The translations under genes and the position numbers were made by a program. Source: Chloranthus sessilifolius (Eukaryota > Streptophyta > Magnoliopsida > Chloranthales > Chloranthaceae). From it: a stretch of 64,000 bases of DNA. Numbering within the stretch: position 1 is the first letter of the stretch; the number at the start of each line of letters is the position of its first letter. The notes beneath the pieces are model-generated. The model was given only the letters and a program-made list of their open reading frames with translations, was not told where the DNA came from and made no database searches. The stretch is from NCBI GenBank assembly GCA_021018995.1, contig CM037587.1, positions 19,035,366 to 19,099,365 of the forward strand, read 5' to 3'. Below, piece after piece: positions 4,845 to 40,620 of the stretch.

Positions 4845-5536
4845 TTTAAAACTTTGTTTAAATTTCACACAATGCATGCTGACACAGAAATTAACTTTGC
4901 AAAATACAAACAGAAGATATGCAAAGAAAAATACCAAAATCTAGGGTTTTGCTTGAAATCTTTGATCGCTTGATTAAATCCTCTAGAATCAGAAGCAAAG
5001 GGTCCCTCTCTTCAAGCTTAATCAGAGAAATAGAAATGAAGGAAATTGGATATGAGCTTCAAAAGCACGCAGGGATGGAAGGAAAATGGGTTTTCTGTGA
5101 AACAGGACACTCTGGGAATGCTTTCGAATATGAAACCCTTGCTTCGAAAGGGTTTAAATATGCTCAAAACGATTTTCGCAAAGCATCTTTGAAGTCTTCG
5201 AAAAGTTCAAAACAGTCCTTTTTACAAAGGAGAATGGCATCAGTACCATTCAAAAACCAAAAGGCTACAGAAACAACTTTTCGAAAAGCAAAAGGCTTCA
5301 GAACCACCTATTTGAAAAGCTTATCATTCTTTTCGAGCAGTTAGTTACAGGTTCAGATCCTTTTCGAAAAGGAAATTAAATTTTTCGAAATAATTTTTTT
5401 TTTCTTTGCGAATTGATTTTTCACATATTGTAAACTTCTCGAATTGAGTGTAAAATATGACTAAAAACAGAGAGAAATAAACTATGCAAAAACTACAAAA
5501 CAAACATAAGTCAAATACATATGATACAGTTGTTTA
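4845..5536 (-). promoter_or_regulatory. Spacer upstream of accessory gene with TTCGAA palindromes (element 1)
   Basis: This lies between the integrase stop and the accessory start. It carries TTCGAA-type sites at 5123, 5143, 5197, 5277-5288 (CTTTTCGAAAAG), 5359-5372 (a perfect 14-bp palindrome) and 5383-5390, plus TTTTCGCAAAG at 5173. These are the same motifs as in the LTR array of this element. An AT-rich TATA-like stretch lies at 5152-5161. No coding potential is seen. I infer an internal promoter or operator region for the accessory gene. Confidence 0.5.
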
Positions 5537-13100: not shown

Positions 13101-13458
13101 TTTTCCCTAAGTCTAGCTCATATGTGTATCAACCAATCAGAATTGGTTAGATCTGTATCAATCAATAGGAGTCGAGCACAAGGATCCAGATCTGTTTTGG
13201 CCAATCAGAACTGCTTGATCTGGTTCAGCCAATCAGGTGACAGAAGCATCAATTCTGTTATGTAATTCAAAAATCTGTTTGAACTTCTAGAAGTTCCCGC
13301 CAAGTATTTCATCTTTGGGTGTTCACATGGGGTGGAATATGCCTTTGGTTCGTGCTCAGAATCTTCTGGAATGTCTCTGGGCTTTTAAATGCATTGGGGC
13401 ACGTGCAGAGATTACTGAATTGCCCTTGCAGATGCTGAGAATCTTTAGGATATCATTT

Positions 13459-13672
13459 CGCACAATTTGGAGAACTTTTCGTAGGGTACTGTGACTTCTG
13501 AAGCTCTTTTCGCACAGTTCTGGTGCTGTTCGCAAGGAGTTCTCTTCTTTTCGAATAGGTCAGGGATCCTTTCGAATAGTTCAGGTGCACTTTGAAAACT
13601 AAGCCTGGAGCTTTTAGTTCTTTTCGCAAAGTTCAGGTTCTTTTCGAAAAGTTCAAGTTCTTTTCGAAAAGC
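13459..13672. repeat. Phased TTCGAA-type array in LTR of element 1 (right copy)
   Basis: CG positions are 13459, 13480, 13511, 13531, 13552, 13573, (13593 decayed to TG), 13625, 13645 and 13665. Intervals are 21, 31, 20, 21, 21, 20, 32, 20 and 20. The left LTR carries one additional 20-bp unit at the end. Confidence 0.85.
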
Positions 13673-13965
13673 ATTCTGTAATGTATTCTTCTGTTCGAAT
13701 AGCTCCAAACCTCTTTCCAGGTTGAGATCAGGGCTTTGTCCTCTTTAGTTGAGGCATTTTGACAGCCAGTGAGGTTGTCCCTTCTCCTTCTTCCACTAGA
13801 TTAGCATGAGTCATCATCTTTTTGGCACTTTTAAGCTGCTTTCAAGGTTAAGCGTGCCTTTATTGTTAGGTGTAAAACAAACGCTAAAACACTTATTTAG
13901 TACTCTCAAAGGTCTATCAAGACTCAGGTTAAGGGGTGAAAAATGGTATTTTCCAGTTCTCAACA

Positions 13966-21119: not shown

Positions 21120-21383
21120 TCAATCATCCATGATGGATCTCCCTTCCTTCGGCTTTGAAAATGCGCAATTCCACATCTCCTCAAAGATGTCGCCCACGTG
21201 TGGTGATGAAAAATGCGCTTGTGGTGGAGAAGATGGTGGGGTCAGAGATGGCAGCTCTATATCAATCAACTCATGCTTTGCCAAATCGAACGGTGGTCGA
21301 GGTGCGTGAAGGCGTGGACGTTTCCTAGCCGGTTCCATCAATTTTTTCACTGTCGAGCGGGTACGATATTTGATAGGCGCCAT
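21120..21383 (-). CDS. Small hypothetical ORF, basic and proline-rich
   Basis: ATG at 21383; about 87 residues opening MAPIKYRTRSTVKKLMEPAR, with a basic N-terminus followed by a Pro/Ser-rich segment. It is not recognised. The basic start resembles the N-termini of the accessory proteins of elements 1 and 2. It lies about 170 bp downstream (minus strand) of a TCAATCGATTGA cluster, with an AT-rich TATA-like stretch near 21450. It could belong to F or to the 3' side of element C. Confidence 0.3.
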   Translation of the reverse strand: MAPIKYRTRSTVKKLMEPARKRPRLHAPRPPFDLAKHELIDIELPSLTPPSSPPQAHFSSPHVGDIFEEMWNCAFSKPKEGRSIMDD

Positions 21384-21556: not shown

Positions 21557-21813
21557 TCAATCGATTGACATTTCAGTGTCAATCGATTGATACTAGATGT
21601 CAAAGGTGCCATTGCGTGCATGGTTCAAATTCTATTTTTTCGAAGCAATAACTATTAGAAACTTTCTGTTACTGACAGATTTAGACATTTTTGCCCACAT
21701 AGTAGTCAATCGATTGAGAATTGTTCCTCAATCGATCGACTATTGAAGTTTAATTTATGAGAATTTAAGAATTTAATGCTCAATAGATTGAGAGAGACAT
21801 CTCAATCGATTGG
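21557..21813. repeat. TCAATCGATTGA pairs, downstream cluster of F
   Basis: Three pairs of the 12-bp palindrome or one-base variants start at 21557/21579, 21706/21728 and 21780/21802, each exactly 22 bp apart. The 10-bp sequences between partners differ. Confidence 0.9.
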
Positions 21814-22073
21814 CTGATGCACAAATGCACCAATCTGAGAATACAGAGAAAAATATACCATGCTAAAAACACTCTGATTGCATTGATTGAAATGATTTGA
21901 TTACACCATTGAGCCCATCATCAACTAAAAGATCAACTAAACAAACTACAATTGACCCTACATAAAAAAAATATATCTAAAAACACATCAAACCAAACAA
22001 AAACAACAAACACTCATACTAACAAACAAACACACTAAGCATCATCATCATCATCAAATCCAGGGTCTCCCTC

Positions 22074-23198
22074 CTAACCCATCACCGCTCGCGCTCCTGC
22101 GATGAATCCGTCGGCACGCCCAGGGAACAATTCCCAGGCCATCCGCATGAGGAGAGAAGTCTGAAACCTAGACCGTCGAGCAATACCTCCCACAGGGGTA
22201 CTCACCCCATCCATCCGTGCCTCGAGGCGAGCAACTGCTGCCTCAACATTAAAATCAGGGACCTCTTTGGGACGAGGTCGTCTTACACCGCTGCGTTGGC
22301 GTTGTGCGGTGTTTGGTCGGGGAGGAGGAGGTACTTCATCAATGTCAATAAGAGGTGGCGTCACACGCAGAATAGCCTTGATGCTCTTGTCCCAAACGTT
22401 GGTTCCATAGTGATAAAATTGCATATCACCCAACTCTTCATCATTGTAAATCGGGCACCCAAGCTGGTCCAAGAGATGCATCACATAGTGCGGGAAGTGA
22501 AGAAGGATAGCCTCTCGCTTCTTCGGTGTAGTGGTGGTAGCGATGTCCTGGTGACGCCGATACATCTCCTCTAGCATTAACCTCGGCACATCAAACCACT
22601 TACTCATGTGTGCCACATATAGTGCCAGCACCCTATTCTTCGTCCACTCACTCTTCGTGCCATGCGGTAGCAAATTATTTGACATAATGATGTCCCAAAA
22701 TAAGATGTCCATTGGTAGGACTGCCCTTTTAGTGGCCAAACCGGTCCCGCACCGTCTTCCACACATATCGTTGATCATGTCATTCTGACTAAGATCAATA
22801 GCCTGATTGATGTGGTGATTCAATGGGCGAACCACGAAGAAGTTGAAAGCCCGTGTGAGATCTGCCTCATGCATGTTATATCACCAATTATCGATCTCGA
22901 GGCTAATGAATGTCAATCCCATTGGTGAGAGTGGTGTAGGTACCCAGTTCATTTTCTAGTAGAACAGGCGAATGATATGCAAAGAGACATCAATAGGTGG
23001 AGGGGCGAGCAACATTTCTAAGTGCAGAGCTTCGATGAATTCGATCGAACGAGCGCATTCCGCGATGCGACGATATTTAGCGAGATCAAAGAAATTCGCC
23101 GTTTGAAATTGGCGATCGACATACTCATCATTGGGAATGAGCATAGGGTTGTTTGCGGGATGAGGTGGCCGGTATATCGGTGGGCCAGGCGTTGCCAT
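22074..23198 (-). pseudogene. Accessory gene of element F
   Basis: The ATG at 23198 opens MATPGPPIYRPPHPA; the frame is broken by stops between about 22956 and 22870 and continues open to 22074. The central block (RAVLPMDILFWDIIMSNNLL, WFDVPRLMLEEMYRR) aligns in pattern with RRDLAPQFLLMDSILRG of element 1 and the matching block of element 2, so it is a diverged member of the same env-position family. The C-terminus is basic and proline-rich, then VEAAVARLEARMDGV, a short coiled coil. An array of palindromes and a TATA-like box lie just upstream. Confidence 0.65.
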
Positions 23199-23282
23199 TT
23201 CAATCAGACGAGGAGAATGAGAATGTGGAAGCGCGGCTCGGATTGGAGGGGAATTGAGATGAAGGGGACCACGGGTGTCCCC

Positions 23283-23292
23283 ATTATATAAT
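23283..23292 (-). promoter_or_regulatory. TATA-like box before accessory gene of F
   Basis: The plus strand reads attatataat; it lies about 87 bp upstream (minus strand) of the ATG at 23198 and directly downstream of the palindrome array. It would be a plausible core promoter independent of the LTR. Confidence 0.4.
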
Positions 23293-23299
23293 TTGAATG

Positions 23300-23824
23300 T
23301 CAATTGATTGAGGATGGATCCTTAATCGATTGAAAACGGTTGGCCTCCACACGTCGCGAGAATTTTAAAAGACACCAGGCATGCTTGATGCGACGTGGTA
23401 CAATCCACTCATCCACGCTTAATGTCAATCGATTGACACAGTGATGTCAATTGATTGAGAAAGACCTTATAGCAAACAGTCGCACCATTTAAGTCCCTTG
23501 GGAACAGACAGAGTAAATAGGTAATCATGTCAATCGATTGGCAGGTTGGTCTCAATCGATTGACATAGACGTGCCCCAAAAGTTACCTCCTACGACAAGA
23601 TGTGTCGATTGATGCTCTGATTTCTGAAAACTGGCCAGAACTTCAAAGTGATGTCAATCGATTGAGAATGGACTCTCAATCGATTGACAGAAGAAGGGAG
23701 GAGATGATGATGATGATTGGACATCAATCGATTGACAGGGTAAGTGTCAATCGATTGAATAATGAATGTCAATCGATTGAATAATGAATGCCAATCGATT
23801 GACTTGAAGGAGTCAATCGATTGA
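23300..23824. repeat. TCAATCGATTGA array upstream of accessory gene of F
   Basis: Palindrome starts are 23300, 23322, 23425, 23447, 23530, 23552, 23654, 23676, 23724, 23747, 23769, 23791 and 23813. Partner spacing is 22 bp (once 23). The last five form a continuous run. Spacers such as CACAGTGATG, GAATGGACTC and CTTGAAGGAG differ in sequence but keep their length. Confidence 0.93.
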
Positions 23825-23927
23825 AAAAGACTCTTCCTCTAACAAAACACAACCAAATAAGAAACACACTGGGTTGCCTCCCAGGAAGCACTGAGTTTAA
23901 ATGTCAACAGCTCGACCACATTGTCGT

Positions 23928-24657
23928 TCAATAGCTTAGGTCACTGAGGTACATTGCCTCAATCCTCATCTGGGTCATTGGCTCAATCATTGGTTTGAGG
24001 CGTTGCCCATTGAATTTGAGAATTCGATTGTCCGTAAGGCTTCTAATTTCAATCGCCCCATGCATGGTAGTGGAGACGACCTGAAATGGTCCTTCCCATC
24101 GTGATTTCAATTTCCCTGGATGAAGCTTAAGTCTGGAGTTGAACAGCCAAACTTTTTACCCAATGTGAAACTATATCTACAAAATTGACTGGTCGTGCAA
24201 CTTTTTGTATCTTTCCTTATACATTTTTGAATTCTCATACGCATCGTAGAGTAGCTCTTCTAATTCATTTAGCTGAAGGCGTCGATGGGACCCTGCCTCT
24301 TTCATATCGAAATTAAATCGTTTTATGGCCCAGAATGCCTTATGCTCTAATTCCACTGGAAGGTGACAGGCCTTCCCATAGACAATCCGAAACGGTGACA
24401 TTCCAATCGGGGTCTTGAATGTCGTGCGATATGCCCAAAGAGCATCAGATAGGCGATTCGAGAAATCTTTTATGTCCGATCGTACCGTCTTCTCTAAAAC
24501 TCTTTTAATTTTTCGATTAGACACTTCCACCTGACCACTAGTTTGCGGGTGATATGGCGTTGCCACCTTATGGGTAACGCTGTATTTCTTCATTAAAGTG
24601 GCAAAATGGCTGTTGCAGAAGTGCGAACCGCCATCACTAATGATTGCTTGTGGAATC
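23928..24657 (-). pseudogene. Integrase C-terminal part of element F, cut by element 2
   Basis: It contains [15 protein letters not shown] (second Asp) and [13 protein letters not shown] (Glu), closely similar to element 1. The GPY/F motif [10 protein letters not shown] (24110-23928) follows after stops near 24175 and 24150. The 5' side is cut at the GAATC target duplication; the first catalytic Asp is at 38045-38227. Confidence 0.88.
24653..24657. repeat. Target site duplication GAATC, left
   Basis: GAATC directly precedes TGTT of the left LTR of element 2 and recurs at 38015-38019 directly after AACA of the right LTR. It marks the insertion point in the integrase of F. Confidence 0.95.
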
Positions 24658-27203
24658 TGTTGCGACATCTCAGTGTGCTTATTTTATTTGTTGGTGGTAA
24701 AAAAAATAATTTAAAATCAAAGAAAGAGTAAAACAGGGGATGGAATCAGCACAACTGAGAAATCCTAGACCTGCAAGATACAGGGTCTATTTGTAGCAAG
24801 TTTTGATAAGTACGAGTTTGTCCCACAGGGAAAGGTGATCTACAGCTCCAAAGGAGCCATCTCTAGTAGTCCCTCCAGATCTGACTACAGATCTGGCAGT
24901 CCTAAAAGGAGGGGAGTTTAAGGTCACTTATTCTAAGTATTCTAAGATAGCCTAATGTGTTAACTACAGAAAGGGTTGAGAAGATGGATGGATTGTGGAA
25001 AATAAATATAAAAGGGTGAGAAGTAGGTTATTGAGTCTAGATCAGAGGAGTTTTGTAACCCAGATTCAGATATGATGTTATGGAAATCCTGTCCAATGGC
25101 TAAATTATCACCAAAGAGGAGGAAGAATTCAACTCATCCCTGTGCCATGATCCAATCCCTTAAGGTTATAACCTGTCCACTTAAATGGTCACAAACTATC
25201 CCATAGGGGAACCACAGTCCAAAGATGGGTCAAAACAAATTAATCATTGTAGGCACTACTTCATCCAGGCTACAAGCTCAAGGAATCCATAGGGAACCTC
25301 AACCTATAAAGCCCTATGTGTGGGGCTAAGGCTGTATAGGACCATGATAGCCCAGACACATAGAACCAGCAAGAGATTGAGTACCACCTTAGATCTAGCA
25401 GTCCATTGCTTGGGTGGGGCTGTAATGGTCTAGTCACAAGCCTACAATCTCCATAACCAGATCAGATCTAACATCTGATGGCGGGTCTATACAAACATAT
25501 GGGGAGTCTGCCTGTGCACAATCTCCTACTAGGCTTAACAACTCAGGATCAGGAAAGAAGGATCCATCTTGGATCGGCGGATTGGATTCACCCTAAGGCT
25601 ATAGCCTGTCCACTTAAATGGTCACAGACTATCCCAGAGGCTATCCTCCTCACGGAGCCCAAGACAAAATAAGTTAATTACTGCTACCACCATGGTCACA
25701 AGGCTATCAGCTTAGGCTCCCATGAGAATTTCAGATCTAGTGGGTCCTGTGGTGGGGCTAAGGCTGTATAGGACCGTGATAGACCAGACACACAGGTCAC
25801 TTGGATCTGATTGGATCCTTAGAATCAGTCCTCCATTTCTTTGAAACACAGCCAAAGCAATGGCGGATCACAAGGCAGCAGCCTTGCACAGAACAACTCA
25901 CAAATACACAAATCCCATAAGAGTACAAATCCTATTATCAAAACTCCACTAATCTAACCTCAATAGACATACAAAGGCATGGCCAGCAAGTGATGAGCCA
26001 TGGAGAGAAGAAAAAGAAGAAAAAGAAAACTACTTACAATTACAGGAAGAACAAGAATGGAAAAGAAAATTACAAAATCTGAGATAGGAGTTCCTCTTCT
26101 AAATTCTAACTCCAAGTCTCCCTCTCGATCCCCCTAAACCTAAACCAGGCTTAGGTTTATATAGCAGTGGTGTGGCGGCGCATTAGGGTTAGTAAACCCT
26201 AATTTTAACGATGCCATGTGGCCGAATAATGATCCTTGGATGCCTCGAGGCACGTACACAGAGATTTGAGCATGGGAGTGCGTGCCCTTACCCATGGAAA
26301 TCCCCAGAAAGTCCTTTACAGAATGATGGAAGTTGGAGTTCATAGCTTTGCCAGGTTGCAGTCAATTCGCAGACTTGTCACGTGGTAGCTCTAGTCTTCG
26401 CGTGGTTGAGTTTAACATTAAAGCTTCAGATGTCACGTGGTTGCAGCTTCTTGATGCTTTGAGCAGTCGCGAGGTAGACAGTTAAGCACTCGCTGGGTTG
26501 GGCTTCGCGTAGTTGGATTGATAATTGTGAATAGCGTGGGAACTATGCGAGCATTCCACTTCACATCGCGAGACTAATTCTGCGTTTCGCGAGACTGCTT
26601 TCTTTCTGAATAGCGAGAGAACTGCGCGAGAAGTTCACTTCTTAATGGATCTTCGTGAGGATCCTCGTGAGGCGTTGAGGCTTTTCTGAACTGCGTGACA
26701 GGTTCTCTTGATATTTGCATCCTGTGGTTACTACGCGATAGCTGCGTGAGGCAGGATTCTAAAGCTCTCTCTCCTCAGCTGTTCTGAGCGAATAGAGCGA
26801 GGGTGAGAGGGGTCTTCTTGAACTGCGCGGGAGCTGTGCAACCTTTAACTTCAAAACTTCGTAAGAGCTGCGCGACTCAAGGCTTCTGAAGCTCTTCTAT
26901 CACTCTACTATGTGAGAACTTGTTTGTGAAGTCTTGGGACTTCGCGAGGACTGCGCGAAGTGTATTTTTCTGAATCCTCTAGAGCTTTGTCAGCTGTGCG
27001 AGGCTCTTCTATGGTCTGAATTCATGGTTCATTCTTCTGAGGGACTTCTGGTGCCAAAACAGGCTCCTTAGTAGGATTTATGGCCTTATTGCCCTGCTGT
27101 TTATTACCTACAAAAAACACTTAACAAGCATTTATTAGATGGCTAAGGGTCTAATCAAAGGCTAAGTTAAGGGGTGAAAAGTGGTACTTTTCAGGACTTA
27201 ACA
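24658..27203 (-). repeat. 3' LTR of element 2 (2,546 bp)
   Basis: TGTTGCGACATCTC at 24658 to acttaaca at 27203. It has a TATA box at 26156-26163 (minus) and many CG-rich TCGCGA/TGCGCGAG words from about 26370 to 27010. The nearby H and E LTR starts resemble its first 300 bp. Confidence 0.95.
26156..26163 (-). promoter_or_regulatory. LTR TATA box, element 2 (left copy)
   Basis: The minus strand reads TATATAAA in an otherwise GC-mixed context; the same site is at 36976-36983 in the 5' LTR, where it would drive the element RNA. Confidence 0.7.
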
Positions 27204-27216
27204 CACCCCCAAACCT
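27204..27216 (-). other. Polypurine tract of element 2
   Basis: The minus strand reads aggtttgggggtg next to TGTT of the 3' LTR, differing by one base from the tract of element 1. Confidence 0.85.
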
Positions 27217-29087
27217 AATCTTTGCTAGTCCCTTAGCAAAGCTACACTAAATCAACTATAGAATTTAAATGCCACTTTCGTAGGGAGCACAGATACATTT
27301 AGCATATGTACCAAGCCTTTTAAACTCTTAGGTGATCCCTAGTGGAGGGGTGAAGTCTCCTGAGGGTTTTCAGTGAAGACACCCACAAACTTCTCAATGA
27401 AGCAGTTAACAAAAGTGCAATTTATCAGATGAGCAGTCAAGGAACAAAGTTAGTTCACCTTTGAATCATTAAAAATATAAGAAATTCAAACACATTGGCT
27501 GCATAGAAATTTAAACAGTATAAGCTTCTCATGAAAGCACAGCATTTCCAATCAGTTTACACCAAAGACACTACACATGTGTGTCAACATTGAGCTCATA
27601 ACTGGATCAAAAATTAGGTTGTAGATCATGCTTAATGCATTCAATATCAGACCCAAAACTCTCCAGGGCATACTCTCATAAAGAACTGCTGAGGGTTTCA
27701 TTATCTCTTAAGCTCAAGAGCAGTTACATCCCCCAAATGGGTCTGTAAGCATGAGCATAGGCATAGCTCTGAAGTTCTGGCATCATTGACAAATCCTCAC
27801 CATAGATTGAATAGCTCTCTGTCTCCACGTGACAGCTCACTCAACTTTGGATCACAAGGGCTTTAACTGGGGTGTAATGTGGCTTATGGAGTGGGGTTAA
27901 AAAGAATGGAAGGTGGAAAAGGGGTTCAAAATTGAGAAATCAGTAGGTGAAGGAGGTGATTCATGACTTCACCTTCTTTGATTCTGCTCCTTTCATCTTC
28001 TTTGAGGTTTTCAGATTTAAAGTGATCAGTTTCTCTTCTTGATTTCAATTTTTCCAATGAAAGTACCCTCTTGACTCCTCTCTTACTCCTCTTCATTATT
28101 ATTTTTGTTTCTTTTTTATGCATTTTTCTTCTTTTTATTTTGTTTTTGCTTTTCTGAAATGCCACCATTTTCTCAGTTACCATACTGCCAGACTTTGAGG
28201 TACTTCTTCTTTCTTCACCTAATGTTGACCATAACTAGTCCATCTTCAACTCTTGTTCCTTTGCCTTCTGAATTCTCAGAGTGAGGGTAAGGTTAAATCA
28301 GATACATAGGTTCAGGTGCAAGTACTCAGGTGTATTTTTGAAGAAATTTAGGATTTAAGGCTCAAGGGCAGTTGCTTAAGGTTGGTCTATTTAGGCTCAA
28401 ACTGCCCAAGAGAAGGCCTTGATCCTTTCCTAAGTCTCATGAGTGCTGTCAGTTGTTTTAACTTGGAGTTTCCTAACTTCTAGTGAGCACAGTGACTCAG
28501 CCAGTCCTTAGAGCTAGAAAAAATTGCCTTTGTCACTCCTCAAAGAAAAAATTTTGTATAGTAGGCCCAAATCTCACTGGTTGTGGTCTTCCTTTGAATT
28601 CTTAAGTATGTCCTTACCTTTTTCTCTCTTTAGTGATTCACTAAGTGTTGATACAAGTGAGTGTCCTTGGTGATCTCATCATGGAGATGTGAAATTTTAA
28701 AAGTTTATACTGTCTAAAGTCTGGAAAAATTTAAAATTTCATTATTTTTCTGATTCTCCAATGAACATGGTTCCATTTCCATATTACTCACATGATTATG
28801 CTGCACTTAGGTTAACTATTCCATTGGCAGGATTTGCCTGCCACACCCCAAAACCTATGAGGAGTAGTGTCCGCACTGGTTCAAAGTTGGGTGTGCAGTA
28901 AATTTATTAATGGCAAGAGAAAAGGAAATAGCATGGAGCAAAACAGACACAAGACATAGAAGAAGAGCAATGACAAAAGAAGAAGATCTATTATATAAGA
29001 GAGAAATGTACAAAAGGAAAAACAAAAGGAGAAAAAGAAAATACAGAAACAGCAAAAATCCTAGGTACAAGCTAATCGGAGTTTGAA
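27217..29087 (-). other. 3' noncoding region of element 2
   Basis: No gene is seen. It is homologous to 850-2623 of element 1 over most of its length. The ORF at 27926-28183 is a lysine-rich AT-bias artefact. Confidence 0.75.
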
Positions 29088-32000
29088 TCAAAACCGGTCC
29101 CAACCCATCTTCTTGGCATGCTCTTGAAGGAGAGCTTCTTCCTCTTTCTTCTTTCGTGCCCGCTCTTCCTTCCATTGGGCATCAGTTTTGGGCAAGGTTG
29201 GTGCCCTGACCCTCATTTTTTGGGTCTTTAGTTCAGGGGGGGTCACTGAAGATTTGTCTTTGCTTTGCTCAGGTAATTTGGTAGGACCTTTTCCTTTAGG
29301 ATTCTTCCCTTTGGGGCCCTTCCCTTTGGAGGTTGGCTCTTGCTGAGTCTGAGGGGGAATAAGAGAAGATTTAGCTTTTTCTAGCTCAGGAGGGACAAGC
29401 GGGCTCTTGCCTTTATCTTTCAGTGGTGGTGCCTCCTCAGACTGGGCAGATTGTTCTTTTCTAATTTTGATAGAGGCAGCTGTGTGAGTAGTCCTCTTAG
29501 TTGTTGCTTTCCTTCTCTGAGGATAAGTTTGCTCAGCAGGGTCAGAAGAAGGAAGAGCAACAGGATTTTTAGAACTTGGATGCACAGGTGGGGCAGAGTC
29601 AGAATCGGAATCAGAGGGAAAGAGAGCAGTGGGGTCCAATCCAAGGGCTGCAGCAGCCTGTCTGCGTTCTTCTTTAGAAAGTAATCGACCATGGGGGTCA
29701 TCCTGAGCAGAAGCTCTGGTGGCCTTCGGTGGTGGGGATGGAGGAGCAGGCTTTTTCTCTTTTTGGGCAGCAGTGGCTCTTTTGGAGGGAGTGGGTTTCT
29801 TGGAAGGAGTCCTCTTTCTCTTGGGTGCAGGAGATTTGGCAGGGGGAGGCACTGTAGCAGGAGGTGGTGGAGGTTCTTGAGTAGGGGGTGGAGGAGGTGG
29901 AGGAGGTGGAGGAGGTGGAGGAGGTGGAGATGTAGATGTAGGAGCAGGGGGGATGGAAGAAGATGGTCCAGGGTGTGTGGAAGGTGGAGCCTCAGGGGGT
30001 GCTGTAGCAAGAGGGGTGGCTTCAATTGGTTGGCCTGTCAGAGATGCAATCCTTTTTTACAAAATTTTAATCTGTTTTTCAGCATAAAGGAGGTTGGCAT
30101 CAGAAAGCCCCTTAGTTAGCCTGTGGATCTCCTCAGCATTGTTCAGCCTTTTTTCAAACATCCGGGCTCTCTTGTGCTCCAGCTTGGCATTGGCTTTCTC
30201 CATCTCCGCCTACAGTTTATAGTAAGTTGCATCAGCCTTTGTCGTAGTGAGGATCTCCAAAATTGACTCCCACCCCTTTGAAACATCTCACAGCTTCTGC
30301 CTGTGAGCAAGCTTCAGGTCATTCATCTTCTGCAGCAAAGGGTACTCAATGGATTGTCTGAGTTGGGCCATGCCCCTGAGAACATCCCTCTTGATGTAGG
30401 CATTGTCCCTCATGGAATGCAGGATGGTGAAGTAAGGAGGGGTGTAGTACGAGTGTCGTGGTAAGATTGGTAGAAATTGAGTGGAAGAAGTAGAAGGTGA
30501 TTGGTCCTGGGGGGGTAAAGTGGAGACTGCAGTGAGGAAGTCTAGTTGAGGGGGAGGGGTAGAAGGTTACCGGTCATTTGTGATTGGTCAGTGAATTGAG
30601 GAGCGGGTAGGATAAGAGGTGGAATGGACGGCATGGGTGGAAAAGTAAATGAAGGGGGGTCACTGAAGGTGGGTGGTTCTGGGTAAGGGTAAAATGGAAT
30701 GGTGAAGGGTCTGAATGGTAAGGGTGGGGTTAAAAATGTGAGGGGGTTAATGGGAAAGGTGGATGGGAAGGGAATGGGGTCTGTTTGGGTTGATTGATTG
30801 GTAAATTATGGTGGGGGTAAAATGAGTGGGGGAAGCATAGGTAGAGGGGGGAAGGAGTGGTGGCGTATGGTGTCAATGGGGGGAAAATCTGGGTGCACTG
30901 TGGAGTTAGAGGTGGAAGGGGACTGGATTTGTGGTGTAGGAGGTTTTTGTGCAGAGATGGGTTGTGTTTGTCAATGTTTGAAGGGTGGATTTGATGGTGG
31001 TGATGTCAGTCTGCATTTAGTCTTGGGTATGTGTTGTGGTTGATAGTTGGGTGTGAATGTCATGTATTAGGGCAAGGATATGGGTAAGTGTGTCTGAGTG
31101 TGGTTGGGGTGGAGTATGAGAAGAAGAGGGAACAAGTTGGAAAGGGGAAGTAGGGGCATGATGGAAGGTTGTAGGAGGAGGAGATGGAGGTTCTAGTGAG
31201 TGATGTGAGGAAGGAAGTGGGGAATCTGGGAGAGGGATATCATGGATTGGCAGGGTGTCAAGCAATGTAGTCATGAAGGCCTGATATCCGGAAGTAGTGG
31301 CTAGGTTAAAGTCAAGGTCTGTGAGTGGAGGTGAGGTAGGGATGGTTGGGATGGTGGCTGGGTCAATATGTGGGGTTTCTGTGGGAATGATAGGGGTGGT
31401 TGGTTTAGGTAAGGATCTGGCAGGGGTTGTGTGAGAGGTTTTCATTTTAATGTAGGATATCAGGGGAGGGCTGTCAGGGTTCAGTTAAGATGATGGGGGA
31501 ATTGGGGGTGTGTACTGAGGTAATGTACGTGAGGGTAAAGTGCTGGCATGGGGTTCAACACTTTCCTCCCAGGAACAAATCACAGGGAAATCTGGAGTGG
31601 GTATGGAAAAGGGAGATAAAAGAGGAAAAGGGAAAGATGGAAGAGGCAAAGAGACGGATGGAGGGGTAGGTGTGGTGGATGAAGGTAATGCTGCAGAAGC
31701 AGAAGTGACCGGAGCTTGCACCACCTTCTTGGGAGCAGGAGCTTTAGCCACCTTTTTGGGAGCAGGGGTGGTCTTCGCAGCAGCAGTCCCTCTCCTTTCT
31801 CAGAAGTAGTCTGAGATTTCTTCTTCTTGCTGGGATCCATCAGACTCCTGCTGATCCCCCTTTGTCCCTTTACGAAAGTGGTAGGGGGAAGGTCAACAGT
31901 TAACTCCCCCACTGGTATCTTGTACCCTACCCTTAAGAGTAATTTGATGATGAGCTTTGCATAGGGGAGAGTGTGGAGCTTCTTTTTGTGCCCTATTTTT

Positions 32001-32728
32001 ACCATAATATCCTTCATGGCCTCAAACATCAACCCGGCAGCATGGAATCTGTGGCCCCGAGAGAAGGAATAGAGAGCATAAAAAATTGGAGTCCTCCTCT
32101 CCTGCTGATGGCCGGCAATAGATGTTCTTTCGGAGAACTTGATCAATGAATAGGAGTTTGGGGTCTAGATCTCTTTTCCTGATGGAATCCCCTGTGGCCT
32201 TCAGCCCTCTGGTAAGGACTTGTGCAATGGTATCAATAGGGGCACACAGAGGGGGGCCATATCCGCAGTTGGGGTTGAAGACAGCAGGGATGCCCATCAC
32301 TTCAGCAATCAGCTCACGACTGAGTAACATTTCAAAATTGTCAACTAACACAAGGAGACCTGGCTGCCCACAGTGGTCTAGTAAAAGAGTTGCACTAATG
32401 TGCTGGTAAAAGAGTTGCACTAGTCTAGGGTAGGCTAGTGTAGGGATAGCTTGCAGCAGGGGGGTCAAACCAGCCTTGCGCATGAATTCAATGACACGGG
32501 CTGACAGAGGTTCCGTTTCAAAGAAAGATAGGTCAAAAACAGCTTCAGGTTCCAAGGGAAGGGGAGTCAGGAGCTCAAAGGGTGTAGAGTAATCAGGTGT
32601 TAGTTTGGCCCCTTTCTAAACCACTTCTTTCCCTTTTTGCGGCGCCGTTGAGGACTTGGCCTTCTTGGGAGTGGGCTCCGCGGGAGCCTTATCCCTTGCT
32701 CTTTTCACAGGTGCGCTCTTAGGAGCCA
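29088..32728 (-). pseudogene. Enlarged accessory gene of element 2
   Basis: The ATG at 32728 opens MAPKSAPVKRARDKAPAEPT, a basic N-terminus. After one stop the conserved domain follows (YPRLVQLFYQHISATLLLDH, KRDLDPKLLFIDQVLRK), with frameshifts near 32100 and 31750. A Pro/Ser/Thr linker (31445-31017 and further, degenerate) comes next. A coiled-coil block beginning PPYFTILHSMRDNAYIKRDV (about 30450-30070) matches the C-terminal block of element 1. Finally an open stretch (about 30056-29088) encodes a polyproline run and a Lys/Pro/Gln-rich tail with a short acidic SDSDSDS patch. At 3.6 kb it is much longer than the 2.2-kb homologue. The tail composition suggests a disordered, nucleic-acid-binding region. 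Confidence 0.68.
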
Positions 32729-33590
32729 TGGAACTTCTCCTCTGTGACGGTGTAGTTTGAAAAATGAAAAGCCAAGGTTGAGAGCTGAGTCTTACCCTTA
32801 AACTTAGGGTTCTGTTCAGTCGGATGCACGAAAGACCGCGAGAGCTCCAATTAGAGGGCAACTGGTGGAGGGGACTTTAGGAGCAAATCCCCAGAATTTG
32901 AAGGTGAATGATGGACTGTAGAAAGGATGTTGGAGGAGAGAGATTAATGGGAGTCAGAGCTAGGGTTTCGCTGGCTGGGGAAGAAAGAGAAAACAAAAAG
33001 GAAAGCAGCGCGGGGTTGGATTATATAAATCGCGGGGCTCAGCGTGCTTTGGAAATATTAGCTCGCTGGATAGAAATGAATGGGTCGCGAGATTGGACTT
33101 TCATTTGGATTGTGTGAGAGAGTCTACACAATTGTATTGAATCTCGTGACAGTTTAGCAGGCTGACATCTTATGAACTGCGCGAGAAGAAACCACGCCTA
33201 TTTTTTAGAACCTCGCGACAGCTAAAACAGTGACAAGGATCTTTTTCCTTTATTTTGTGGGTGGATTCTCTCACATTCTCTGTTCCAGAGACACCCACGG
33301 TCATTCTAAAAGGGATTCCCTCAGGCATTCCCAACATTGAAGCATGTAAGTAATCCAAAAGCATTTAATCAAAACATCATATTCAAACAGCATTCTTATT
33401 ATCAAAATAGTACAATCATCATTCATTTACTCAAAATCATCAATTCAAAGGGAATAAGAACCAAAGCAGGAAGAATAATTCTCAGGTCATGTACATTCAG
33501 ACTCCGATGAGATCACTAGAAATTCCTATAAACAAAAAAAAAATGAACCATACTAAAATACATAACATACACAATGCACAATTCTGTGAA
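32729..33590 (-). promoter_or_regulatory. Spacer upstream of accessory gene with TCGCGA motifs and TATA box (element 2)
   Basis: No gene is present. This is where pol should be. It carries the LTR-type words gcgcggg (33006), tcgcggg (33029), gtcgcgagat (33084), tctcgtgac (33143), ctgcgcgagaag (33178) and cctcgcgac (33211). A TATA-like box (minus TTTATATAA) lies at 33021-33029, about 290 bp before the accessory ATG. The layout parallels the spacers of element 1 and F. Confidence 0.5.
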
Positions 33591-35137
33591 TCAAGTCAAT
33601 GAAAGATCCCCTTGCCCCTCAAGGTTTGAGGATCCATCACCAATCAAAAATTGGCCCTTGGTATTAACCACTGGTTGACTGGGCAACCTCCCCTCCTCTC
33701 TTTTAGCTAAGGCATTCACTAGCTGGCCAATCTGCTCTTCCATCTTCTTTATGCTCTAACCATGAGAACTCATAGTCCGAGCCACGGACCCCAGGTTTTG
33801 CAGTGAGGTCAAGACCTGGTCCTCAAAAGAAGTATTTCTGGGTTGAGATGGGGGTAGGACCAATTGATTTTGTTGCTGATGGGGCTGCTGCTGGTGTTGG
33901 AAATTAGACCTAGGGGCATATCCTTTGTTGAACTGCTGTTGTGGCCTTTGAGGTAAAGCCAACATCTGCTATGGCTGCATAAAATTGTCTTGCCTCCACC
34001 TCAGATTTGAGTGGTCTCTCCATTGGTAACCAACATTTTGGTGCTGGTATCCATATGGCTGTCTGTTGTAGCCACCAGATTGTTGCTGACCAAAAGATTG
34101 TGCAGCAGCAGCATGTTCCAATACCAATTCAGGATATTGCCCTGCAGATGGACATTCCTCTACTGTGTGCTGTGGGGACTGGCATATCAGACATTCCTCC
34201 ACCACTTGAGCAGCCCTTCTGGGTTGCATCATAGTCAGTAATTTGTCAAACTTCAAAGAGATGTTTGCCATCTGTAGCTGCAGGTCATTGTTCCCAGACA
34301 CCTCATAAACTTTTCCTCTTGACGATGCAGCAGGCTCCACTTTTGACACAGACTCCTGACTAGTTCTTGCCTGGGATAACTTTTGAAAAGCATTTTCACT
34401 GATTACTTCAAACAATTCCCATGCCTCATCAACAGTCTTGTGCATGTAGGTTCCACCACAAGAGGCATCAACCATATCTCTATTTTTCTCATCAATCCCA
34501 TTGTAGAAGCTTTGTACAAGCTGCCAGTCTGGGATCTTGTGGTGGGGCCACTGTTTGAGCATTTCTTTAAACCTATCCCAGGCTTGATTAAATTCCTCAA
34601 TTGGGGATTGGGCAAAAGCAAGAATTTCCTTCCTCAACTGGCTAGTTTTGGTCTCAGGGAAGAACTTTATCAGGAACTTGGTTTGTAGGTCTTTCCAAGA
34701 TGCAATGCTATTGTTGGGAAGAGTAGCCAACCAGGTGCTAGCCCTATCCTTCAGAGAGAAGGGAAAGAGCCTGAGTCTAGTAGCCTCAGGTCCCAAACCA
34801 GCGATATTGAAAGTGGTGCACAAGGCCAAAAATTGGTCAATATGCTTATAAGGGTCCTCCTTGCTGAGCCCATGGAAAGAGGGCAGCATCTGGATGATTG
34901 AAGTTTTAATCTCATAATTCCCTTGAACATCAGGAATTGAATGCTGAATGGAGAGTTATAGTCATCCGGAGCATTCAACTCCTTGAGAGTTCTGGGTTGT
35001 TCTTCACCCATGAATACTGTCTCAAATTCAGTTGGGGGCTCTACTGTGGTGTGCCTGTTCCTTCCCAGTCTTCTACCCCTTTCTAGCTCAGGGTTTAATG
35101 GCTCTAAAGTAGGACTAAGAGATCTCCTACCTAGCAT
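33590..35137 (-). pseudogene. gag of element 2
   Basis: The ATG at 35137 opens MLGRRSLSPTLEPLNPELER, homologous to the gag start of element 1. A frameshift near 34920 precedes the long open part 34889-33969. That part has the gag domain (YKHIDQFLALCTTFNIAGLG, WDRFKEMLKQWPHHKIP) and an intact zinc knuckle CLICQSPQHTVEEC (C-X2-C-X4-H-X4-C), then a Gln-rich tail. Stops lie near 33966 and 33755. Homology to element 1 fades after GQFLIGDGSSN (about 33620), just before where protease would start. The product would form the capsid and package RNA. Confidence 0.88.
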
Positions 35138-35469
35138 CCAAACACACCACTAGCAGGGACAACTCCTTGGATGCACATTGCACTTGATTCAATGAATTTT
35201 TTAACAAATTTACAGCTAATTTAAGAAGACATACATTTACAACTATATTAAACAACGACTATGTAATTTTCAAAGAAACTAGACTAAGTGTTAAAGGTTA
35301 GAGAATTGCAAACAGAGGTAGCTAATCTCCAAATGCAGTCCAATGTCCTTCTCTGCTGTTGTCTAGATCTGCAAGAAATATTCTAAATTATATCAGCAGT
35401 ATCAATTATTCACATTTACAAAGAATACTATAAATACAAAAACTAAGGGTCTACTAATAGATCATCTTT

Positions 35470-35486
35470 CCCCGGCAGCGGCGCCA
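35470..35486 (-). other. Primer binding site of element 2, tRNA-Asp
   Basis: The plus strand reads ccccggcagcggcgcca, one base different from the 3' end of plant tRNA-Asp, 6 bp from the 5' LTR. Confidence 0.9.
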
Positions 35487-35492
35487 AAAACT

Positions 35493-38014
35493 TGTTGCGA
35501 CATCTCAGTGTGCTTGTTTTATTTGTTGGTGGTAAAAAAACAATTTAAAATCAAAGAAAGAGTAAAACAGGGGATGGAATCAGCACAACTGAGAAATCCT
35601 AGACATGCAAGATACAGGGTCCATTTGTAGCAAGTTTTGATAAGTAAGAGTTTGTCCCACAGGGAAAGGTGATCTACAGCTCCAAAGGAGCCATCTCTAG
35701 TAGTCCCTCCAGATCTGACTACAGATCTGGCAGTCCTAAAAGGAGGAGAGTTTAAGGTCACTTATTCTAAGTATTCTAAGATAGCCTAATGAGTTAACTA
35801 CAGAAAGGGTTGAGAAGATGGATGGATTGTGGAAAATAAATATAAAAGGCTGAGAAGTAGGTTATTGAGTCTAGATCAGAGGAGTTTTGTAACTCAGATT
35901 CAGACATGATGTTATGGAAATCCTGTCCAATGGCTACATTATCACCAAAGAGGAGGAAGAATTCAACTCATCCCTGTGCCATGATCCAATCCCTTAAGGT
36001 TATAACCTGCCCACTTAAATGGTCACAGACTATCCCATAGGGGAACCATAACAAATTAATCATTGTAGGCACTACTTCATCCAGGCTACAAGCTCAGGGA
36101 ATCCATAGGGAACCTCAGCCTCTAAAGCCCTATGTGTGGGGCTAAGGTTGTATAGGACCATGATAGCCCAGACACATAGAACCAGCAAGAGATTGAGTAC
36201 CACCTTAGATCTAGATCTAGCTGTCCATTGCTTGAGTGGGGCTGCAATGGTCCAGTCACAAGCTTACAATCTCCATAACTAGATCAGATCTAGCATCCGA
36301 TGGCGGGTCTATACAAATATATGGGGAGTCTGCCTCTGCACAATCTCCTACTAGGCTTAACAGCTCAGGCTCAGGGAAGAAGGATCCATCTTGGATCGGC
36401 GGATTGGATTCACCCTAAGGCTATAGCCTGTCCACTTAAATGGTCACAGACTATCCCAGAAGCTATCCTCCTCACGGAGCCCAAGATAAAACAAGTTAAT
36501 TACTGCTACCACCATGGTCACAAGGCTATCAGCTCAGGCTCCCATGAGAATTTCAGATCTAGTGGGTCCTGTGGTGGGGCTAAGGCTGTATAGGACTGTG
36601 ATAGCCCAGACACACAGGTCACTTGGATCTGATTGGATCCTTAGAATCAGTCCTCCATTGCTTTGAAACACAGCCAAAGCAATGGCGGATCACAAGGCAG
36701 CAGCCTTGCACAGAACAACTCACAAATACACATCCCATAAGAGTACAAATCCTATTACAAAAACTCCATTAATCTAACCTCAATAGACAGACAAAGGCAT
36801 GGCCAGCAAGTGCTGAGCCATGGAGAGAAGAAAAAGAAGAAAAAGAAAACTACTTACAGTTACAGGAAGAATAAGAACGGAAAAGAAAATTACAAAATCT
36901 GAGATAGGAGTTCCTCTTCTAAATACTAACTCCAAGTCTCCCTCTCGATCCCCCTAAACCTAAACCAGGCTTAGGTTTATATAACAGTGGTGTGGCGGCA
37001 CATTAGGGTTAGTAAACCCTAATTTTAATGATGCCACGTGGCCGAATAATGATCCTTGGATGCCTCGGGGCACATGCATGAAGATTTGAGCGTGGGAGTG
37101 TGTGCCCTAATCCTTGGAAATCCCAGAAAGTCCTCTGCCGAATGATGGAAGTTGGAGTTCAGAGCTTCACCAGGTTGCAGTCGATTTGCAGACTTGTCGC
37201 TTGGTAGCTCTAGTCTTCGCGTGGTTGAGTTTAGCTTCATATGTCATGTGGTTGCAACTTCTTGATGCTTTGAGCAGTCGCGAGGTAGACAGTTAAGCTC
37301 TCGCTGGGTTGGGCTTCGCGCAGTTGGATTGATAATTATGATTAGTGCGGGAACTGCGCGAGCTTTCCACTTCACTTTGCGAGGCTAATTTTGGCTTTCG
37401 TGAGACTGCTTTCTTTCTGAACAGCGCGAGAACTGTGCAAGAAGTTCACTTCTTAATGGCTCTTCGCAAGGATCCTCGCGAGGCATTGAGGCTTTTCTGA
37501 ACTGTGCGACAGGTTCTCTTGATATTTGCATCTCGCGGTTATTACGCGATAGCTGCGCGAGGCAGGATTCTGAAGCTCTCTCTCCTCAGCTGTTCTTAGC
37601 AAACCGCGCGAGGGTGAGAGGGGTCTTCTTGAACTACGCGGGAGCTACGCGACCTTTAACATCTAAACTTCGTGAGAGCTACGCGAATCAAGGCTTCTGA
37701 AGCTCTTCTGTCACTCTACTGCACGAGAACTTGTTTGTGAAATCTTGGGACTTCGCGAGGACTGCGCGAAGTGTATTTTTTTGAATCCTCTGGAGCTTTG
37801 TCAGCTGCGTGAGGCTCTTCTATGGTCTGGATTCATGGTTTATTCTTCTGAGGGACTTCTGGTGCCAAAACAGGCTCCTTATCAGGATTCATGGCCTTAT
37901 TGCCCTACTGTTTATTACCTACAGAAAACACTTAACAAGCATTTATTAGATGGCTAAGGGTCTAATCAAAGGCTAAGTTAAGGGGTGAAAAGTGGTACTT
38001 TTCAGGTCTTAACA
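35493..38014 (-). repeat. 5' LTR of element 2 (2,522 bp)
   Basis: TGTTGCGACATCTC at 35493 to tcttaaca at 38014, with a TATA box at 36976-36983 (minus) and a TCGCGA-rich zone at 37218-37820. It is followed by the GAATC duplication and the integrase of F. Confidence 0.95.
37218..37820. repeat. TCGCGA/TGCGCGAG array in LTR of element 2
   Basis: Many CG-rich words of the form tcgcga, ctgcgcgag and cttcgcgag occur, several in pairs 10-12 bp apart (37348/37358, 37425/37437, 37465/37477, 37545/37557). The left LTR (26370-27010) has the same series with different CG-to-TG/CA decay. Confidence 0.75.
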
Positions 38015-38900
38015 GAATCTCGAATCAGTTAAAGATATTTTCTTTCAAAATTTGACCACGACCTTGTGGTCATTCGAGCGGGTTGCCACAGCTTCTATCC
38101 ATTTGGACACATAGTCAACAGCTACTAAAATATATGAATACCCGAACGATGGGGGAAAAGGACCCATGAAGTCGATCCCCCATACATCAAAAATTTCAAC
38201 AATCAAAGTCAGGTTCAGTGGCATCATATTTCGTCTTGAAATATTTCCAGGCTATTGGCATCTTTGGCATTCTTTATAAAATTTGGCAGTGTCCCGAAAG
38301 ATGGAGGGCCAATAGAATCCGCTTTGAAGAATCTTGTGTGTGGTCTTTTGTCCTTCGAAATGGCCTCCACAGGCCCCAGCATGGCAGAAGTTAATAACAC
38401 TCAATTGTTCTTCTTCAGGCACCCATCTTCTGATAACCTTATCTGAGCAAAATTTGAACAATTGTGGCTCATCCCAAAAATAGTATTTTATTTGAGAGAA
38501 AAATAGATTTTTATCATTTTTACCCCATTGGGTAGGGATTCTGTGAGTGACCAGATAATTTACAATATTGGCAAACCAAGAAAGATTTGTACTTGTTGTA
38601 TCAATTGTCATTAACTGTTCATCTGAAAAGGTGTCACGGATAGTCTCAGAGACCGATGATTCTTCAGGCAGAATTTTTGATAGATGATCAACCAGAACAT
38701 TTTCGACTCCCTTTTTATCTTTGATCTCAAAATTGAACTCTTGGAGAAGTAAGATCCATCGGATCAACCTTGGTTTGGTGTCCTTCTTTGCTAACATATA
38801 TTTCAAAGCCAAGTGGTCTGAAAAGACCACTATTTTCGATCCAAGCAAATAGGAGCAGAATTTATCCAAAGCATACCCATTTACTCTCATCCCTCTTTCC
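38015..38900 (-). pseudogene. RNase H end and integrase N-terminal part of element F
   Basis: Minus strand: RNase H (FSDHLALKYMLAKKD, VDHLSKIL), the HHCC finger (CHAGACGGHFEG, CQRCQ), a TAG at 38252-38254, then [20 protein letters not shown] with the first catalytic Asp. A one-base shift near 38050 precedes the break at the GAATC site. Upstream of about 38900 the homology stops, so F lacks RT here. Confidence 0.85.
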
Positions 38901-40620
38901 CAATTTATCAGAGATTCAAGGGTAAAGCTTAAATTTTTAGAAATGGTGTCGGGGTATGGTTGACATGGCTTATCAAAAAACATATAAAGGTAAAATTTTC
39001 AAGAAGCTCAAAGGGGATGCAAAAAGGTAAATCTATATAAGGTGGGGCATTTTAGGTTCAAACGAGCCAAGGATGGCTTATGATCATTTCCTGTCACTGT
39101 GGTAATTGTTAGAACCTGTTTGTCACGTTTTACTCCAAAATCCATGTAGATATCCCTTAGGATATGTGTGTGCCAAGATGGATGGGTTCTACTTGGATCG
39201 ATCAAGTTTATCTATCAGACACTCTTGATCTGTGGTGTGTTTATCATTCAAAAGACCTTAAAAACATGATTATAAATAACCTAAAGATATTGTTCCCAAA
39301 GCGAGCTGTTGCTACTGAATGTTCTCAATGCTCACAACATGCTATGATATTTATCACAGCGAGTTGTGGTGTTCACAGCAGGCTGTGGTTACACTCACAG
39401 TGTGTTGTCACCACAGCTCACTGCCACTTGAATCACAACGTGTTGTGGGTTCCTCGGGACAGAACTTCTCTTTTATGGAAAAGGGGCTTTTTGGACTTTT
39501 CTTATTTTTTGGTCTTTTGGGGCTTTTAGGGTTTGGTTTAAAAGGTTTTGAAAAGAGGAGGTAGGGAAGCAAGCTAGAGAGAGCTTCTTCTTCCTTGAGC
39601 AAAAACCCTAGAACTCTATCATCTTTCACCTTTTGAACTTTTGAATTGGAAAAGTAGTTTATTCAAAAGGTGTTCCTTTCTTCTTCATTTTCTACATCAT
39701 ATTTGCTCAAGTGAGTTGAGTGTTTTGAGCCCTAGAGATTAGGGTGTGTGACTGATAGTCTTGTGGATCTCAAGGTGGATCATTGTGCGTTCATCAACGA
39801 GTGTGGAGGGCATTCAAATATGAAAACTGTTGAGGCGACCCGTGACGGGAAGTTGAGTTGCTTGGGGGTTTGATAGGGCATGTGCATGTGTCGGTATATC
39901 ATTTGAAACTCCTTGTAAATATTTATTTCATAGTGAATTTGGTGTGTGGACTTAGGTCCCATAGTTTTTCCTAGTGATTTGGTTTCCACGTAAATCTCAT
40001 GTTGTGGTGATTGTTGTTTATAGTATAATCTCTAGATTAATTAGAATTAATCGAATAGCCCGATAAATTTCGTAGATTGACGAAATTTCAGTAATGATGC
40101 CTATTTATTTTGAATTCAAATACAATGTGTTCTAATGCAATAATATAAACAATGTATAATCAACAAACTCAGATAAAGCATATGAGATTAAAATAATTAA
40201 GCACGAATTTTAAAGATACTCCAAATTTATTTTAACACTCATCAAGAATGAGATAAAAGTGCTAAAGCTTTTCGGGTATAGTCAATTTTAGAATCTTAAT
40301 ATTCCAGATTCGAACTAATCTTTTGATTTCCGGACCTAAACATGGCAAAAGTGTAAAAAATGTTGTAGGTAAGAAATTCAGATTGACCTTTAAATGTTCA
40401 CAATAGAATTAATTATCTTGAACAACAACAGTTTATCATGGCATGAATATAATAAAATTTTAAAATTTACATGCATCTTTGATTACATTTTGAAAACTAC
40501 GATAAAATAAATAGTGATGGTTTAGAAAACTATGCAAACAATGGTATTGAGGGTGTATAAAACAGTGATTCAACATATAATATAAAAAGTATGAATCATG
40601 AACCATGCATTTGGCAGAAC
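38901..40620. other. Unassigned LTR-like sequence
   Basis: No gene is supported. The end of this stretch (around 39950-40010) has the look of plant LTR or UTR sequence. 39297-39448 carries a run of near-palindromes. The source element and orientation are not determined. Confidence 0.35.
39297..39448. repeat. Phased CACA-GCGAG-TTGTGG near-palindromes
   Basis: Words of the form cacagcgagttgtgg (variants cacagcaggctgtgg, cacaacgtgttgtgg) start at 39333, 39355, 39374, 39396, 39412 and 39434, with a further one at 39297. Intervals are 22, 19, 22, 16 and 22 bp. Confidence 0.7.

Follow-up and report, generated by a model that had tools for sequence, protein, structure and literature searches.

Silenced retrotransposons abound in plant genomes and, to our knowledge, little is known about how such elements retain working promoters. 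Among described systems, a close counterpart of the arrays considered here is provided by the RM boxes of Sireviruses (Bousios et al. 2010, PMC2829016), which are palindromic, 10–20 bp long and present in 8 or more copies per element. Within the LTR these boxes lie in its upper half, ahead of a TATA box, and they recur upstream of the env-like gene. In the sections of that paper drawn on here they are termed Sirevirus-specific, as judged against classic Ty1/copia elements. Hairpins formed from Sirevirus-type palindromes are discussed as sources of small RNA in the extract used of a further paper (PMC10760457, citing Bousios 2016).

The array analysed here consists of copies of the palindrome TCAATCGATTGA in a Ty3/gypsy-type element and is real, large, orderly and of cis-regulatory type. 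We describe its layout and its recurrence in the genome, and weigh the explanations for it.

Element F and its palindrome arrays

The window, by which we mean the whole stretch of 64,000 nt that was analysed, holds several nested retrotransposons (table 1). On its minus strand lies element F, a fragment of a Ty3/gypsy-type retrotransposon. In a single frame (window 38252–38983) the integrase zinc domain comes after RNase H, which is the Ty3/gypsy order, and to judge by gag and layout F may be Athila-like. The protein collection contains 2,428 relatives of its pol, the named ones among the best 120 being from plants (Malus, Camellia, Mucuna, Hibiscus and Sesamum). Element H, nested inside F at 24658–38014, has 2.5-kb LTRs that are 93% identical and a target duplication GAATC; it carries gag and an accessory-type ORF, and no palindrome array in it was prominent in motif counts. 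Elsewhere in the window, tandem repeats of 35 bp and 69 bp are found at 50129–50674.

Table 1. Coordinates of the features discussed, numbered from the first letter of the window unless a contig is named.
Feature	Position	Strand	Remarks
Window	contig CM037587.1, 19,035,366–19,099,365		64,000 nt of plant DNA with several nested retrotransposons; 2.17-Gb assembly
F pol, 3' part	23928–24657	minus	integrase core (weak Pfam rve) and C-terminal region
F pol, remaining part within the window	38015–38983	minus	RNase H and integrase zinc domain; separated by nested element H
Array A	23300–23824	minus	13 palindromes TCAATCGATTGA (8 exact, 5 with one mismatch), four pairs and one run of five; located after the end of integrase and ahead of ORF1
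TATA box	23283–23290	minus	sense strand TATATAAT; 9 nt past the final palindrome of array A
ORF1, accessory gene	22035–23198	minus	Pfam Transposase_32 (PF20167) weak, under cut-off; three in-frame stops in F
Array B	21557–21813	minus	three pairs with a 22-bp step, 6 palindromes in all, of which 3 are exact and 3 have one mismatch; located after ORF1 and ahead of ORF2
ORF2, small accessory ORF	21120–21383	minus	87 aa, basic stretch; no Pfam family
Element G, LTRs	1–837 and 13147–13965		integrase and accessory ORF (3054–4937) homologous to those of F
Element G, 3' LTR array	402–546	minus	7 copies of CTTTTCGAAAAG, 0–2 mismatches; steps 20–21 and 32 bp
Element G, integrase–accessory spacer array	5172–5371	minus	6 copies of CTTTTCGAAAAG, 0–2 mismatches; steps 22, 83, 31, 21, 31
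Element G, 5' LTR array	13506–13702	minus	7 copies of CTTTTCGAAAAG, 0–2 mismatches

The palindrome of F has the core ATCGAT and one central CpG per site. With up to two mismatches it matches the window 23 times against 3.65 expected (s.d. 1.88), and none of 100 shuffles reached 23, so that a chance origin of the array was rejected. Thirteen of the matches form array A, six form array B and four are isolated (15110, 30346, 42393 and 44463). Single sites were also tested for palindromic extension, and none was found. A CRISPR-like array was considered as well and rejected on the setting, which is a plant retrotransposon.

A preliminary description of this DNA had reported thirteen copies or one-base variants of the palindrome at 23300–23824, set 22 bp apart from start to start (once 23) within pairs and in the final run, and upstream of the accessory gene of F. 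All of this was borne out: the step is 22 bp inside each of the four pairs of array A and 23, 22, 22 and 22 bp in its final run, and on the minus strand the array does lie upstream of ORF1, which starts at 23198. Array B, with six further copies, had been overlooked; there the step is exactly 22 bp in all three pairs. All 19 sites of the two arrays belong to 22/23-bp pairs or to the one run. Counted over the window, 18 of the 20 sites with at most one mismatch have a partner (at most three mismatches) at 22 bp, and one more has a partner at 23 bp.

The same description held that the spacers differ and that the array is no simple tandem duplication. For most of the array this stands, with ten distinct spacers among 11 steps. 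In the final run of array A, on the other hand, the spacer ATAATGAATG occurs twice (23759 and 23781), and two overlapping 22-bp rows (23724–23802 and 23745–23825) were returned there by Tandem Repeats Finder, which indicates that one step of this run is a local tandem duplication.

Genomic copies and position of the arrays

Exact units of two palindromes separated by 10 bp occur 18,872 times in the 2.17-Gb genome, and the reversed control gave 0. Motif pairs with any gap from 0 to 30 number 22,664, so the gap is exactly 10 in about 83% of them. A pattern scan of viral contigs gave 0 matches.

Copies of F were collected by a genome search with ORF1, which gave 143 scored copies out of 15,978 candidates. 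Twenty of the 143 (L025–L044) were picked by protein and not by motif, and together with F itself, L008, L010 and L017 they make up the set of 24 F copies used below. A separate group, L005–L021 (17 of L005–L024), was chosen for exact 22-bp pairs, so its spacing is biased by that choice; L022–L024, picked blind, contain no sites.

In the 20 copies chosen by their ORF1 protein the arrays recur at the same two places. Both arrays are present in 23 of the 24 copy slices, array B of L008 falling outside its slice, and the final run of array A consists of four palindromes in 17 of 24. The set holds 421 sites, two of them within the ORF1 zone. A preference for the 22-bp step among genomic copies, which had been put forward for checking, is evident: the distance to the next site is 22 bp in 179 of 397 cases and 23 bp in 38.

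The preliminary view that motif and spacing are kept while the filler is free is also supported. Mean column identity over 20 aligned copies (the 24 minus L031, L010, L017 and L043) is 0.95 in the arms of array A, 0.70 in its spacer centres and 0.80 elsewhere; for array B the values are 0.91, 0.44 and 0.67. Among 129 changed arm pairs, only 4 are Watson–Crick, while 46 are G-U and 58 A-C. Arm changes are thus uncompensated, so what is kept is the sequence of the arms as such. The most frequent arm changes are CpG transitions (49 of 159), in keeping with copies that are methylated and silent.

Array A is closely tied to a TATA box. The word TATAWA stands exactly 9 nt past the array in 20 of the 24 copies, as against 2.7% of 60-nt windows drawn at random from these sequences. 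The exceptions are L025, with a one-base variant in that position, L008 and L031, in which the last site called is at a different place, and L017, which is without it. For ORF2, 11 of 21 copies, many of them truncated, contained a less strictly defined TATA-like word. Directly past the TATA box of F, on the sense strand at 23264–23282, there is a second small inverted repeat, GGGGACACCCGTGGTCCCC, exact in 7 of the 24 copies and present with at most two mismatches in 17.

In a full-length relative, E1 (L010 + L011), both LTRs contain sites, as do the leader ahead of gag, arrays A and B and the stretch after ORF2. The gag-pol of E1 contains no sites, and that of two others, E2 and E3, one site each (at most two mismatches). 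The LTRs of E1 measure 1346 and 1340 bp, with site starts from 251 to 463 and from 251 to 459, respectively; each has three TATAWA matches, one of which sits 29 nt past the last LTR site. The leader arrays of E1, E2 and E3 have no TATA match before gag, so not all arrays are promoter modules of this kind.

Sister families and helical phasing

Related families with homologous accessory ORFs (F, G and L023) carry different palindromes. The motif of element G, CTTTTCGAAAAG, is likewise a 12-bp CG-centred palindrome, and differs from that of F. At up to two mismatches, 20 of its 23 window matches fall in the two LTRs and the spacer of G, and five shuffled windows gave 3–10 matches; in the genome there are 1,337 pairs and none in the control. 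In a third family, L023 (4845–5318), four GCCTCGCGAGGC-like boxes (at most two mismatches) in the integrase–accessory spacer are followed by TATATA. Further arrays with free spacers were noted for TCGATTAATCGA, mostly at 19–23 bp steps (L008:3389–3791, L021:1023–1497 and L011:7988–8151), and for TTGATCGATCAA, with about 25 copies (at most three mismatches, some overlapping) mostly at 20–21 bp steps (L012:8213–8762); over both motifs most steps fall within 18–23 bp.

The sites of G are phased with a period of 10.4 bp (36 distances, R 0.82; reached in 0 of 2,000 random placements), a value that derives partly from tandem repetition in the LTRs, the spacer set alone giving R 0.95 over 9 distances. 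Five copies of the G spacer gave R 0.81 over 59 distances. For TCGATTAATCGA, R was 0.76 (L008) and 0.45 (L021, L011), and for TTGATCGATCAA 0.41 (L012); the L023 boxes showed no phasing (p 0.33). For F itself the tests disagree. Set against random pair placement, the between-pair distances of the window show no phasing (p 0.39); R there was 0.44 at a best period of 7.4, with p 0.016 in a weaker jitter test, and E1 reaches R 0.54 at a period of 10.7 (0 of 1,000 in the jitter test). The earlier suggestion of dimers bound side by side on one face of the DNA is supported mainly by the sister families, whose different palindromes are set at multiples of about 10.4 bp; for F it receives this divided answer, and it had missed the pair as the unit.

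A predicted binding module and its possible reader

Motif, spacing, conservation above background, positions, TATA box and family-specificity are directly established. A palindrome kept as sequence, helical-turn multiples in the sister families and the position relative to the TATA box together make a dimer site the best explanation. On balance we think that the promoter-proximal arrays of family-specific CG-centred palindromes, in LTRs and accessory-gene spacers, are probably dimer-binding sites of this sort, arranged in cooperative 22-bp modules. Each 12-bp palindrome would be the site of a symmetric (dimeric) DNA-binding protein, and two sites 22 bp apart, or about two helical turns, would form one cooperative module. 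Several such modules would lie directly ahead of a TATA box in the LTR and ahead of the accessory gene, and there they may activate or shield the promoters of the element itself. Binding could be sensitive to methylation of the central CpG.

As to the binder, a special case of this explanation is self-recognition of the VANC type, in which ORF1 or ORF2 would bind the palindromes of its own family and reverse silencing, with motif and protein co-evolving. We regard this as possible but rather unlikely. It would suit the finding of homologous accessory ORFs with different palindromes among related families of one genome, the near-absence of sites from the ORF1 zone, the arrays being in non-coding parts, and the share of CpG transitions, which is as expected for methylated copies. 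The same logic is reported for VANDAL/VANC in the sections used of two papers (PMC5735166, PMC10398659). On the protein side, ORF1 is an open frame of 422 aa in copy L033 (start codon TTG, upstream of ATG), but it has no match to a known DNA-binding family in Pfam, and neither the ORF1 piece nor the accessory protein of G has homologues in the protein collection at E 0.001. An AlphaFold model of a 268-aa ORF1 piece, run with three window sequences, had a pLDDT of 37, and the structure was not usable. Homologues of ORF2 are found in L008, L010, L017 and L019; its basic KKLMEPARKRPRLH stretch presumably resembles a nuclear localization signal. Also against self-recognition, the box listed for the tobacco copia element Tnd-1, ACAATCGATTGT (PMC2829016, in the part used), is nearly identical to the palindrome of F and points instead to a shared host factor.

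The pair as the unit

The unit of the arrays is the pair of palindromes rather than the single palindrome. In nine orthologous pair groups, the first bases inside the pair (+1/−1) are complementary in 140 of 165 cases and the second (+2/−2) in 134 of 165. The usual run of four, with sites 22–23 bp apart, behaves as two pairs: in each of its two outer steps the inner ends are complementary in 15/18 and 18/18 cases, and in the middle step, the junction between the pairs, in 0/17 and 1/17, at nearly the same spacing. The letters themselves vary by pair group (CT/AG, CA/TG, GA/TC and GG/CC). Among the 18,872 genomic units, the inner-flank class C...G accounts for 2,495, G...G for 1,342 and C...C for 1,354, the last being the reverse-strand count of the G...G pattern.

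Inner flanks that are complementary within a pair and not at the junction are not predicted by a plain DNA-face model, and they mean that a hairpin or cruciform has to be considered. Each pair would fold, as RNA or as extruded DNA, into a stem of 12 plus 2–3 bp with a short loop, and the fold would be the selected feature, with packaging, RNA regulation or a small-RNA source as proposed roles. We regard this as unlikely. The complementarity does survive strict de-duplication in both orientations (n = 47), with 24 pairs at the first inner position against 13.3 expected (p 0.00075) and 23 at the second against 15.6 (p 0.007), but the excess fades under the strictest de-duplication (n = 22; p 0.015 and 0.10). 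On a tree of 19 copies (the 24 minus L031, L010, L017, L043 and L008), two-sided changes starting from a pair keep pairing seven times and break it once; against this, 27 one-sided changes break the inner pair, as may be expected in dead copies. Array A folds strongly as RNA (z −7.3), although this follows from the repetition of the palindrome. The outer flanks have no significant complementarity, and the arms, which would form the stem, are almost never compensated. Their G-U and A-C changes are about equal (46 and 58) and so carry no sense-RNA signal; sense-RNA structure on its own was rejected for the lack of arm compensation and of a G-U bias. In the spacers of G the inner ends are complementary at either position in only 5 of 25 distinct spacers. 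The complementarity is therefore real in F, moderate in extent and not common to G.

It is highly improbable that the arrays are a neutral minisatellite, decayed tandem repeats of a 22-bp unit, because the one true duplication in the final run stands against spacers that are mostly unrelated, arms that are near identical, orthologous positions in 20 copies and adjacent modules in the window whose starts are 48–127 bp from each other amid unrelated sequence.

Returning to the dimer-site reading, a broader version of it can be framed, to which we assign rather little probability. Plant Ty3/gypsy-type elements would then use a family-by-family code, each family having a CG-centred palindrome of its own, set in helical phase ahead of its promoters and read in a methylation-sensitive manner by its own accessory protein, amounting to a VANC-like system that arose in LTR retrotransposons. 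In F the fixed 22-bp pair could also fold, so that the same duplex site would be offered by double-stranded DNA and by the folded single strand.

Comparison with known systems

The open-licence literature searched yielded no account of such arrays in Ty3/gypsy elements, and a search with the motif letters led to PMC2829016, through Tnd-1, as the sole paper recognized as relevant. As far as this search extends, what is new is that the arrays sit in Ty3/gypsy-type elements, that their palindromes form a strict 22-bp pair whose inner ends co-vary, and that a single genome holds sister motifs specific to their families. A paired site present about 19,000 times in a single genome would amount to a large store of identical binding sites, with the capacity to titrate or rewire a host factor. 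Should the accessory proteins indeed read the palindromes of their families, proteins of hitherto obscure function would gain a role, and sequence-specific self-recognition by transposons would have another case beside VANC. The 22-bp module, the sister motif of G and the co-varying flanks lend themselves to simple binding and reporter assays.

Several described repeat systems share some of these properties. The SIRCs of Arabidopsis (PMC10342631) resemble the arrays of F in having short direct repeats with unrelated spacers, and some lie in Athila and VANDAL elements; they are nevertheless a broad class with 2–8 repeats, most without long palindromes, and the portion of the paper used describes no fixed pair module. 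In Retand (PMC11963269, in the excerpt used), too, the region from pol to the 3' LTR contains repeats together with an accessory ORF, but there whole units are in tandem and the ORF is antisense, whereas in F only the palindrome and its step are kept and arrays are also present in the LTR and leader.

VANDAL elements and their VANC proteins (PMC5735166, PMC10398659; comparison limited to the parts used) share with F short, family-specific motifs in non-coding parts that differ between related families. VANDALs are MULE DNA transposons, whereas F and its relatives have a retrotransposon pol, LTRs and gag. The VANDAL motifs, YAGTATTAY and AGTTGTCC/AGTTGTAC, are non-palindromic and lie in tandem repeats, in contrast to the palindrome of F, and binding is proven for VANC while for the arrays of F it is inferred.

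The likeness to the Sirevirus boxes, within what the sections used of PMC2829016 provide, extends further. In both cases the motifs are palindromic, numerous and placed in the upper half of the LTR (as in E1) and upstream of an accessory gene, and the cluster is soon followed by a TATA box (for array A in 20 of 24 copies, and in the LTR of E1), a feature from which the leader arrays depart. Most Sirevirus boxes have a CGG-CCG core, unlike the ATCGAT of F; Tnd-1 is the published exception, its box (Table 3 of that paper) sharing the core CAATCGATTG with F. A fixed 22-bp pair, inner-flank complementarity and leader arrays, all present in the F family, do not figure in those sections. Sireviruses are Ty1/copia elements, with integrase before reverse transcriptase, whereas F has the Ty3/gypsy order and is not a Sirevirus. 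By analogy, the arrays of F are best read as working like the Sirevirus repeated motifs, but in another superfamily.
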